This document shows, in pieces, positions 12,188 to 25,573 of a stretch of DNA of 64,000 nucleotides. Position 1 is the first letter of the stretch; each line of letters starts with the position of its first letter. A program made the position numbers and the translations under genes. The stretch comes from Oscillospiraceae bacterium (GTDB lineage: Bacteria > Bacillota > Clostridia > UBA1212 > UBA1255): contig SVJB01000009.1 of the NCBI GenBank assembly GCA_015069185.1, positions 1-64,000 of the forward strand. The letters are read 5' to 3'. The notes under the pieces were generated by a model. That model did no database searches. It saw nothing but the letters and a program-made list of their open reading frames with translations, and had not been told where the DNA came from.

Positions 12188-14650
12188 TCATCTGATTATC
12201 TCACTTACCAGGGGCCCTATGGCGGTAAAACCTAATACAACACCTAATTGGGCCGGCATTAATGCTGTAGTTTTAAAAACCACTTGCATTGCAGGCATAT
12301 ATATTACAGCTACCATCATAAGCAAGGATACAGCAGTAGCCATAAGCAACCATTGATTCTTACGGATATCAATCTTAGACAAAGTTTTATTTTCGCTAAG
12401 GCATTCAAAAGAGTGGACAAGTTGTGTCATTACCAATGTCATGAATGCTGTAGTACGAGCTATCTCAAGACTTCCTGTGGCATGATTTACACATACAAAC
12501 GCTCCTAATGTGCACAATCCTATCAATATTCCTCTTATTATTATATGAAAAGGCATCTTTCCGCTGAATAATCCTTCTTTGGGTGAGATTGGCGGTCTTT
12601 GCATTATATCAGATTCACCTTTATCAAGACCAAGTGCGATTCCCGGCAATCCGTCTGTCACAAGATTCACCCACAATATCTGTATAGGAAGTAACGGCAG
12701 AGGTAACCCAAACAAGATACCGATAAACATTGTCACAACTTCCCCTAAATTGCACGCTAGCATATACCGAATGAATTTTCGTATATTACTATATATTACT
12801 CTTCCCTCGCGTACTGCATCTACAATTGTTGCAAAATTGTCATCGGTGAGTACCATAGAAGATGCCTCTCTTGTAACGTCCGTACCATTTATTCCCATTG
12901 CAATACCAATATCTGCTTCCTTTACCGCCGGGGCATCATTCACACCGTCGCCTGTCATAGCAACAACATTACCCAGACTTTTGTACGCCTTAACAATCCT
13001 CAACTTATGTGCAGGTGTGACTCTGGCAAAACAACTTGCTCTTTGTGCTGCCTGTTGTAGTTCAGAATCGCTCATTTTTTCAATATCATCGCCTGTAATC
13101 ACCTCTCCGCCGGAAATTCCCAATTCCTTTCCAATTGCCGCAGCAGTTAATTTATGATCTCCGGTTATCATCACAGTCCTTATGCCAGCTTGCCTACATA
13201 TATGTACACTTGAACGGACCTCAGGGCGCAGCGGATCAATAAGTCCTACAAATCCGCAGAAAATCATATTATCTTCTCTGATATCTGCCTTTTCACCATT
13301 TTGATCTAATTTTTTCCAGCTGATACCAAGCACACGTAAGCCCTGATTTGCCATATTGTTATTAGCCTCTTCCAGTTTGTGCCGCATTGTACTGTCCAAG
13401 CCGCGAAGTCTGTCTTTTATCATAACAGATGTACATTTATTCAATATAACATCGGCTCCACCCTTAGTGAAAATATATTTATCTCCATTCTTGTCACGCA
13501 CTACTACTGACATACATTTTCTGGTAGAATCAAATGGTTTTTCTTTTATACGGGTATAATGCGATCCTGTACCCAATTTAAGAAAATGACGTATTTTAAT
13601 AAGAGCTTTTTCTGTTGCGTCACTATTATTGTTGCATACACGGCATACATCAGCAAGTCTATTTAGTTCTTTGTTATCAATTGACATATTCAGTGCATCC
13701 ATAGCCGTCACCACTTTGCGAATACTCATTTTGTTTTGAGTAAGGGTACCTGTTTTATCAGAACAAATTACTGTTGTAGTACCGAGAGTCTCTACAGCAG
13801 GCAACTTGCGCACCAGAGCCCTGTTAGCAGCCATCCTCTGAACCCCAAGAGCCAGAGCAATTGTAACGATTGCAGGTAAACCCTCGGGTACCGCGGCAAC
13901 AGCTAAACTAATGCCGGCCATAAGCATTTCCATAAGCGGCTCTCCTTTGAGTACTCCTACCAATGTAACTAAAATACATACTACAACACAAATGGCAACA
14001 ATATATTTCCCTAACTTTGCCAGACGTTTTTGAAGTGGTGTAGCTTCTTTCTTAACATTAGAGATCATTTTCGATATTTCACCCATGCGAGTAGACATAC
14101 CGGTAGCTGTGACCTTTGCTATACAGCTGCCACCCACTACTAAAGTACCTGAATATATCATATCTTTACTTTCCTTATATACAGGCACGGATTCTCCTGT
14201 GAGCATGGATTCATCATTACATAATCCGGTAGATTTGAGTACAATAGCATCAGCAGATACAATATCTCCACTACGCAACATTATTATATCTCCCGGTACT
14301 ACGTAATCTCCGGCTATAACTTGTTCTGTTCCGTTTCGTATTACTTTTGTCTTGAGCGCTGTCATTTCTCTTAGCGCTTCTATAGTCTTCTCAGTTTTAT
14401 ATTCCTGAATAAACCCCAAAATTGCATTACATACAATTATTCCCATCATGACAAGGGCCTCTACCCAATCCTTCATAAAAAAAGATACGCCGGTGCAAAC
14501 GATCAGTATTATCGTCATTACATCGGCAAATTGTCTGAAAAAAAGAACAATCGCCGGTGTTTTTCTATGTTCTTCTAGTGAATTTTTTCCATATTTTGTA
14601 AGTAATTCTGTTGCCTGTGTATCAGAAAGTCCCGAATAAATATCCTCCAT
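12188..14650 (-). CDS. Cation-translocating P-type ATPase, Ca2+ (PMCA/SERCA) type
   Basis: 820 residues with all P2-type features: N-terminal cation ATPase domain, actuator loop TGES (151-154), the membrane motif PEGLPA (255-260) characteristic of Ca2+ pumps, phosphorylation site D298 in SDKTGTLTQ, KGGA in the nucleotide domain, MITGDH and MTGDGVNDAPA hinge, and four C-terminal transmembrane helices. It should export Ca2+ using ATP. The C-terminal M7-M10 region is present but compact. The start codon and GGAGG site sit in the loop of a perfect 16-bp hairpin (14628-14695). It lies 90 bp downstream of ftsH on the same strand. Confidence 0.92.
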   Translation of the reverse strand: MEDIYSGLSDTQATELLTKYGKNSLEEHRKTPAIVLFFRQFADVMTIILIVCTGVSFFMKDWVEALVMMGIIVCNAILGFIQEYKTEKTIEALREMTALKTKVIRNGTEQVIAGDYVVPGDIIMLRSGDIVSADAIVLKSTGLCNDESMLTGESVPVYKESKDMIYSGTLVVGGSCIAKVTATGMSTRMGEISKMISNVKKEATPLQKRLAKLGKYIVAICVVVCILVTLVGVLKGEPLMEMLMAGISLAVAAVPEGLPAIVTIALALGVQRMAANRALVRKLPAVETLGTTTVICSDKTGTLTQNKMSIRKVVTAMDALNMSIDNKELNRLADVCRVCNNNSDATEKALIKIRHFLKLGTGSHYTRIKEKPFDSTRKCMSVVVRDKNGDKYIFTKGGADVILNKCTSVMIKDRLRGLDSTMRHKLEEANNNMANQGLRVLGISWKKLDQNGEKADIREDNMIFCGFVGLIDPLRPEVRSSVHICRQAGIRTVMITGDHKLTAAAIGKELGISGGEVITGDDIEKMSDSELQQAAQRASCFARVTPAHKLRIVKAYKSLGNVVAMTGDGVNDAPAVKEADIGIAMGINGTDVTREASSMVLTDDNFATIVDAVREGRVIYSNIRKFIRYMLACNLGEVVTMFIGILFGLPLPLLPIQILWVNLVTDGLPGIALGLDKGESDIMQRPPISPKEGLFSGKMPFHIIIRGILIGLCTLGAFVCVNHATGSLEIARTTAFMTLVMTQLVHSFECLSENKTLSKIDIRKNQWLLMATAVSLLMMVAVIYMPAMQVVFKTTALMPAQLGVVLGFTAIGPLVSEIIR

Positions 14651-14695
14651 AGTCAGCCTCCAATTGCTTGTACTTGATAATATTTATTCGGGACT
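14628..14695 (-). promoter_or_regulatory. Hairpin enclosing the P-type ATPase translation start
   Basis: AGTCCCGAATAAATAT at 14628-14643 and its exact reverse complement at 14680-14695 form 16-bp arms. In the mRNA the 5' arm is in the leader and the 3' arm is codons 3-8. The 36-nt loop contains both GGAGG and the ATG. There is no U-run after it, so it is not a terminator. It could gate translation or be cut by RNase III. Confidence 0.65.
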
Positions 14696-14739
14696 CTTAA
14701 GTTTTATACTTTAAATTATTTTGTCTGCAGCCTTATAGT

Positions 14740-16617
14740 TCACACACCTTCATCTGCTTTTTTCAGTTCGAGATCCGGTTCACATTCAGACATAAGCTGT
14801 ATAAAATCACTACCTGTAAGATTTTCCTTTTCATATAGCACACCGGCAATTCTATCTAATGTTGCCTTATGTTCATTAAGTAACTGGTATGCTTTGTTAT
14901 AGCATTCAGTAATGACCTTCTGAATCTCATTATCAATGCGAGTCGCTGTTTCATCAGAACACTCAAGAGAAGAGCGTTCAATCAGATATTTATTGGTACG
15001 TTTCTCTCGATTTACAAAGCCAAACTCATCGTTCATTCCGTATACAGTAATCATCTTACGTGCTAATTCTGTTGCCTTCTCAATATCATTTGATGCTCCT
15101 GTTGTTATGGAATTAAACTCCAGTTTTTCAGATGCACGTCCTGCTGTAAGGATAGTAATTTCTTCTAACATCTCTTCTGTATTTAATAATACTTTTTCTT
15201 TCTTGGCAACCTGCATTACATAGCCAAGGGTACCTGAAGTACGAGGTATGATCGTAATTTTATGAACGGGTTCAGTATTAGTTAGTAGAGCAGTTACCAA
15301 AGCATGACCTGTCTCATGGTAAGACACGATACGCTTTTCCTTATCAGACATAACTCTATTTTTCTTTTCTTCTCCTGCAATAATAACTTCAATTGCTTCA
15401 TCCATTTCTCTCTGACTGACACGTGTTCTCTTGGCACGTACAGCACGCAAAGCAGCTTCGTTTACAATATTTGCAAGATCAGCACCTGATGCACCGGGAG
15501 TTGCTCTGGCTACTACATCAAAATCAACATCCGACTCCATAATAACATTTCTTGCATGTACCTTAAGTATATCAACTCTTCCCTGCTGATCCGGCAAGTC
15601 AACAATTATTCTTCTATCAAATCTACCCGGTCTGAGCAGAGCTTTATCAAGTACCTCCGGTCTGTTGGTCGCAGCCAGTATAACAACACCCTTAGATGAG
15701 TCAAAGCCATCCATCTCCGCAAGAAGCTGATTCAATGTCTGTTCTCTTTCGTCATTACCACCCATAACATTATCTCTTGACTTACCGATTGCATCGATCT
15801 CATCAATAAAAATGATACACGGTGCGTTATCAAGTGCCTGTTTGAAAAGATCTCTAACTCGTGAAGCACCCACGCCAACAAACATCTCTACAAATTCAGA
15901 GCCTGACAGTGAGAAGAACGGCACTTTTGCTTCCCCGGCAACCGCTTTAGCAAGTAAAGTCTTACCTGTTCCGGGAGGACCTATAAGCAGCGCTCCCTTA
16001 GGTAGTTTAGCACCGATTGCAGTATATTTACCCGGACTATTAAGAAAGTCAATAATCTCAACAAGAGACTGCTTAGCCTCTTCTTGTCCTGCAACATCAG
16101 CAAAAGTTTTGCCAGTATTTTTTTGTGCATATATTTTTCCTGTATTCTTACCAAATGACATAACTCCACTCATACGTTTATTCATTGAACGTATCATTAT
16201 AATGAAGAATACAACTGTAATTACCAAAGGTAACACATATGCGAGAAGAATCTCCCAGATAGCGGTGTTCTTGGGTATCGGTGTACTGTAATCAAGTCCA
16301 GCCTCTTTACAAGCATTGATTATGTCATATTCAAGATGATCATTACCAAATCGCCCTGTTTCATAATATGTGTTCGTTTCATCAAAATCCGCAGGTTTGA
16401 GTACATATCTTGAGCCCTCAAACTCTATATCTACCGCCTCACCATTCTCAATCATAGAAATAAATTCATTTAACTTTATTTCCTTATAATCAGGTGCAGT
16501 CAACATAGGCACCAGCATTTTACTTATAGTGATAACTATGAATATAAATATAATGTAGAAAACAAAAATCGGGATTTTTCTTTTTTTCGGCTGATTGTTA
16601 TTATTTATGTTCGCCAT
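14740..16617 (-). CDS. ftsH: ATP-dependent zinc metalloprotease FtsH
   Basis: 625 residues. Two transmembrane helices (~14-38 and ~120-142) bracket a periplasmic-type domain. An AAA+ module follows, with Walker A GPPGTGKT (213-220), Walker [12 protein letters not shown] and the second region of homology [20 protein letters not shown]. The C-terminal M41 protease carries HETGH as the zinc-binding HExxH (usually HEAGH). It degrades misassembled membrane proteins and short-lived regulators. Length and order are standard. It is followed by the P-type ATPase gene and preceded by the divergent tRNA-Lys. Confidence 0.97.
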
Positions 16618-25461: not shown

Positions 25462-25573
25462 TTTTTTTGTAAAATATCCTCCTTATGATTACAATACCAC
25501 AATATTACACTTCTCTTTTTTTTAAAAAAGGAGTATACTATTGTTTGAGAGTAATTATAAGGAGGTTTTGTTT

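Follow-up and report, generated by a model that had tools for sequence, protein, structure and literature searches.

A hairpin enclosing the start of a predicted Ca2+-ATPase gene overlaps a putative sporulation promoter and may silence read-through RNA

Locus organization

We analysed a window comprising one whole 64,000-nt stretch of DNA from the genome under study (G000), in which a gene for an 820-aa protein lies directly downstream of ftsH on the same strand. The product matches the P-type ATPase family profile (type IIA) and has relatives among Ca2+-ATPases, while its score falls below the equivalog cut-offs for PMR1-type and SERCA-type pumps. On sequence grounds we assign it to the P-type Ca2+-ATPases (type IIA), with the transported ion being a prediction. 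The gap between the two genes was searched for a terminator-like site, and none was found. The genes and the structural elements at the start of the ATPase gene are as follows.

14740..16617, minus strand: ftsH, co-directional upstream neighbour, ending 89 nt before the ATPase start
12188..14650, minus strand: P-type Ca2+-ATPase gene, 820 aa; nearest solved relative Listeria LMCA1 (lmo0841)
14680..14695, minus strand: 5′ arm of the perfect hairpin, AGTCCCGAATAAATAT, overlapping the putative −10 element described below
14628..14643, minus strand: 3′ arm of the perfect hairpin, within codons 3-8 (D-I-Y-S-G-L)
14676..14697, minus strand: 5′ arm of the extended stem, 21/22 positions paired, G-U counted
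14626..14647, minus strand: 3′ arm of the extended stem, pairing with 14676..14697
14657..14661, minus strand: Shine-Dalgarno (SD) sequence GGAGG, inside the hairpin loop

The perfect arms are 16 nt each, 100% complementary and spaced 36 nt apart, and the loop between them holds both GGAGG and the ATPase ATG, which the main stem leaves unpaired. With G-U pairs and one mismatch allowed, the stem grows to 21 pairs in 22 positions and reaches into the open reading frame from nucleotide 4 onward. The first-pass annotation of this DNA had described just such a hairpin, with its 3′ arm in codons 3-8 and the ribosome-binding signals in its loop, and had denied it a terminator function because no U-run follows; our measurements agree on each point. 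An intrinsic terminator was likewise rejected here, given the missing U-run and the 36-nt loop.

Elsewhere in the window, positions 2886-2938 form a perfect inverted repeat (CTGCTGACCGGAAT / ATTCCGGTCAGCAG) with 14-bp arms around a 25-nt loop and without a U-run. A long imperfect repeat (49 nt, 73%) is located at 25471-25572 upstream of a MecA-like gene, where the anti-SD sequence CCTCCTTATGAT pairs with the SD of that gene.

Rarity of the start-region hairpin

To rank start regions, we computed an ungapped stem score around the start codon of 1321 genes in 1.66 Mb of G000. The ATPase stem scored 41.0 and ranked second (mean 17.3, sd 3.3), and its score was matched by 0 of 5000 shuffled leaders, in keeping with the earlier judgement that such a stem is improbable by chance. 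The folding z of the start-region hairpin was −5.6 against 200 shuffles, and 327 kb of the genome contained just 4 perfect inverted repeats with arms of 16 bp or longer and loops no longer than 80 nt. RNAduplex energies were swamped by large gapped pairings and overlooked the stem of the same-genus relative G001; ungapped stem scores and opening energies were used instead.

The 161-bp hairpin region occurs once in G000, and a genome-wide repeat was accordingly rejected. A search of the region with Rfam covariance models returned no riboswitch or thermometer family, only a chance-level miRNA match.

Because of its position, the hairpin might belong to the end of the ftsH message, as an RNase III cleavage site or a stabilising 3′ hairpin: its distance from the ftsH stop codon is ~42 nt, and RNA would have to carry the ftsH 3′ end for it to form. 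We consider this reading quite improbable, since the stem has a 36-nt loop and lacks a U-run, half of it lies within the next coding region, and the same layout recurs at spoIIIAA (see below) where ftsH is not upstream.

Promoter-like element in the 5′ arm

The 5′ arm coincides with part of a putative sigma-E promoter, whose elements are positioned as follows.

14703..14709, minus strand: putative sigma-E −35 element GTATAAA, with ATA-N16 spacing as in PMC3789822
14681..14688, minus strand: putative sigma-E −10 element AATAAATA, inside the hairpin 5′ arm
14672..14677, minus strand: predicted transcription start zone, from promoter geometry ~6-8 nt past the −10 element, at the 3′ limit of the 5′ arm or immediately after it

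The pattern (G/T)(A/C/T)ATA-N16-(A/C)ATA (KHATA-N16-MATA) precedes 14 of 16 orthologues, always at one spacing; its chance occurrence per leader is 0.2-6%, for a pattern picked out after inspection of the sequences. The spacing reads ATA-N16-AATA in G000 and ATA-N16-CATA in the relatives G003 and G006. The G000 −10 element has A for C at its first position, and both elements are weak matches to the sigma-E consensus. GGACAA, conserved in the spacer elsewhere, is replaced in this genus; we take it to be a SpoIIID-like sequence.

A motif near GGACAATCC(C/T)GAATAAA is shared by most orthologue start regions, which nevertheless have no hairpin. Across 31 genomes of the order, GGACAAWCYYGAATA has 7 exact matches, 6 of them directly upstream of ATPase orthologues, against 0 for the reversed control. 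A regulon-wide motif was thus rejected, the exact motif being nearly restricted to the ATPase gene in these 31 genomes. Among them, the sole GGACAATCCTGAATA copy away from an ATPase gene lies at G029:C25:3580-3594 (L123).

In Clostridioides difficile, the sigma-E-dependent promoter of spoIIID reads ATA-N16-CATATATA, and the sigma-E targets include CD2833, which encodes a putative Ca2+-ATPase and has both an assigned sigma-E promoter and a putative SpoIIID site (PMC3789822). The Bacillus subtilis Ca2+-ATPase YloB is described as expressed in sporulation (Raeymaekers et al. 2002, as cited in PMC4155585). The present protein resembles both as a P-type Ca2+-ATPase of a spore former, a likeness of type. 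To our knowledge, no such hairpin is known at CD2833 or yloB. Among genomes of the order, 14 of 15 with spoIVA and 1 of 14 lacking it have an orthologue above ~50% identity, counts drawn from kindred genomes and hence not independent events. In one relative (G002:C1:3574-6432), the ATPase orthologue is convergent with a neighbouring spoIIID.

Judged from the conserved pattern, it is very likely that the leader arm forms the −10 end of a promoter of the sigma-E type, while sigma-E dependence of the ATPase gene is suggested only by analogy with CD2833. Because the pattern overlaps the arm and is conserved in families without the hairpin, mRNA from this promoter would lack the 5′ arm. This bears directly on the idea of a translational switch in the gene's own mRNA, responsive to temperature, Ca2+ or another ligand, along the lines of the thermo- or ion-responsive switch proposed in the first-pass annotation. 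A strong stem around the start is what such a switch would need, but its 5′ arm overlaps the putative −10 element, orthologues retain promoter and protein with no hairpin, and Rfam offers no match. We regard a switch of this kind as improbable, and nothing in the analysis supports a thermo- or Ca2+-responsive one.

Covariation within the genus

In G001 (76% protein identity), the ATPase gene likewise lies behind ftsH, and 19 of the 21 stem pairs are kept. The two internal differences on the leader side are each matched by a coding-side change, giving two double compensatory substitutions (C-G to U-A at codon 6, U-A to C-G at codon 2), both Watson-Crick. The covariation between arms for which the first-pass annotation had advised looking is therefore present, in one comparison between two genomes of the genus. 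At the outer stem end, a G-U pair has changed to A-U and an end pair has disappeared; of the coding-side changes, two disrupt pairs and two improve them.

These matched changes could also be explained by template switching between the arms, and fortuitous or copied complementarity is possible. On such an account, the promoter sequence TCC(C/T)GAATA is complementary to the Y-S-G-L codons by chance, and template switching extended and homogenised the arms, which have no function. The parts are indeed predisposed to pair: with leader and protein held, stem scores of at least 31 arise in 5% of random codon choices. Template-switch repair would likewise yield matched changes in both arms, and the stem is confined to one genus. 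The full stem, however, requires codon choices reached in only 0.12% (G000) and 0.57% (G001) of random synonymous recodings under the same constraint, and the two species keep the pairing with different sequences. An unrelated hairpin in a sister genus and a second sigma-E operon of this genus with the same layout (spoIIIA), both described below, also speak against a neutral origin, which we judge unlikely though well worth keeping in mind.

Orthologues outside the genus

In the sister genus (G009), the ATPase gene also sits behind a co-directional neighbour without a terminator. A perfect 11-bp stem of unrelated sequence (CCGCGTCCTCC / GGAGGACGCGG) covers the SD there; its 5′ arm precedes the promoter pattern, and its score is reached by 0.1% of leader shuffles (p 0.001). 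Background stems were found where the co-directional neighbour ends in a strong terminator (G019, G021, G028) and where the neighbour is divergent (G004, G011, G018, G029, G002, G020, G049). G003 has a long-looped terminator-like repeat, identified by eye, and no comparable ungapped stem. Comparable hairpins are absent from G006, which has a co-directional neighbour with a weak terminator-like site only, and from G016, with a co-directional neighbour, a 51-nt gap and no promoter pattern. This distribution is suggestive of a tie between hairpin and neighbour context, an incomplete one given G006 and G016.

The ATPase leaders of G006 (L010) and G003 (L011) contain a terminator-like hairpin (CAGGCAGT..ACTGCCTG) followed by a T-rich stretch between the promoter pattern and the SD, which could be an attenuator.

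The first-pass annotation had made its reading depend on whether relatives keep the protein without the leader arm, and here the outcome is divided: outside the genus, protein and promoter are kept and the hairpin is absent, whereas G001 retains the stem. The hairpin-free relatives argue against an ancient riboswitch or thermosensor.

A DNA-level operator with two inverted half-sites for a regulator would accord with arm centres 52 bp apart, or about five helical turns, and inverted half-sites are a common form of operator. Conservation of the promoter side but not of the 3′ arm outside the genus, together with an exact 16-bp match that exceeds what a half-site requires, makes this highly improbable.

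Other start stems in the genome

spoIIIAA, a sigma-E target in C. difficile (PMC3789822), carries the eighth-ranked start stem of G000 (shuffle p 0.001). In both G000 and G001, the same promoter pattern as at the ATPase gene, here ACATAAC-N14-AATATATT, falls within the 5′ arm of its hairpin, and the 3′ arm, with 6-7 T after it, covers the SD (G000 C14 L162:609-653; G001 C1 L192). With this T run, the hairpin may also terminate read-through RNA.

The top start stem of the genome (score 42; L228:6843-6924, G000 C50) precedes the gene for a 184-aa FapR-like protein, for which a Pfam search gave no match, and is possibly an operator. At L177:18530-18578 (G000 C29), the SD of a GDPD-family gene lies in a 21-position stem (AATAAATCCCTCTAAATATAA / TTATATTAGGAGGGATTTATT) whose 5′ arm seems to be overlapped by promoter-like sequence; no clear orthologue of this gene was found in four relatives. 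A perfect 16-bp long-range stem lies over the SD of a tyrosine recombinase gene (L163:3871-3978, G000 C15), just downstream of a co-directional gene whose product has a lysyl-tRNA synthetase-like C-terminus, and perhaps reflects read-through silencing of a mobile element.

Predicted opening of the ribosome-binding site

Opening positions −18 to +16 is predicted to cost 20.9 kcal/mol when the RNA reads through from ftsH, and 6.5 kcal/mol when it begins at the predicted start. Set against 900 genes put through the same calculation (mean 2.0, sd 3.1), the difference of 14.4 kcal/mol ranks within the top 1%.

Discussion

The best explanation of this locus, and one in which we place moderate confidence, is a silencer of read-through RNA that overlaps a sigma-E-type sporulation promoter. 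The 5′ arm would be the −10 end of such a promoter, serving a sporulation Ca2+ pump. RNA made in the mother cell from the gene's own promoter would begin just past this arm, could not form the hairpin and would be translated. With no recognisable terminator after ftsH, a housekeeping gene, and a start past the arm, only ftsH read-through RNA could form the hairpin; carrying both arms, it would close the ribosome-binding site in a loop behind ~20 bp and would be poorly translated. As the SD and AUG lie in the loop and not in the main stem, we propose that translation is blocked by enclosure of the ribosome site. The hairpin thus probably silences only stray messages from ftsH. The earlier interpretation is partly supported, as a structure that encloses the start and would affect it, with covarying arms, is present; on the best reading, the mRNA made from the gene's own promoter contains no such switch.

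Arrangements of this type have been described. In phage T4, the folding of long early gene e transcripts cuts lysozyme synthesis 100-fold, whereas RNA from late promoters, which lie in the 5′-strand region, is free of the structure and translated; soc, 49 and I-TevI are related cases (PMC3014915). For B. subtilis sigG (spoIIIG), a hairpin of 20+ bp has been proposed to block translation of spoIIGA-sigE read-through RNA; transcripts from the sigG promoter are unable to fold into it (PMC5942855, citing Sun et al. 1991 and Masuda et al. 1988). By anatomy, the ATPase start is a candidate member of this T4 e/sigG type: its stem encloses the start, with SD and AUG in the loop, and the co-directional upstream gene without a terminator is ftsH, across an 89-nt gap.

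Like sigG, the ATPase gene would be expressed in sporulation from a late promoter of its own, lie behind a co-directional operon, and bear a hairpin confined to read-through RNA. It differs from sigG in gene and sigma factor, in the overlap of the 5′ arm with the putative −10 element, in a 3′ arm within codons 2-9, and in having SD and AUG in the loop. Like T4 gene e, it would combine a promoter within the 5′-strand region with a long RNA that folds over the start; the phage case, unlike ours, is experimentally proven and pairs the SD and/or AUG within the helix, whereas ours involves loop enclosure deduced from sequence. The type of mechanism is already known, and the ATPase start is probably a new place for it.

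More tentatively, and at somewhat less than even confidence, we suggest that in this clostridial lineage, which is uncultured, sigma-E operons behind co-directional genes (Ca2+-ATPase, spoIIIA) are insulated by hairpins and not by ordinary terminators. The 5′ arm would be the promoter's −10 region, such that one stretch of DNA would act as mother-cell promoter and as lock on stray RNA, and a comparable arrangement would have arisen independently for the ATPase gene in the sister genus.

Few promoter-spanning read-through hairpins are documented, phage T4 and B. subtilis sigG being examples. A start-codon stem is not necessarily a riboswitch, and the position of the transcription start is the first question to ask of it. 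If our reading is true, codon choice at the start of a gene can be constrained by a hairpin, and such a hairpin can evolve fast once a gene lands behind an active neighbour. Clostridial sporulation would then use these hairpins repeatedly, keeping mother-cell genes silent in growing cells.
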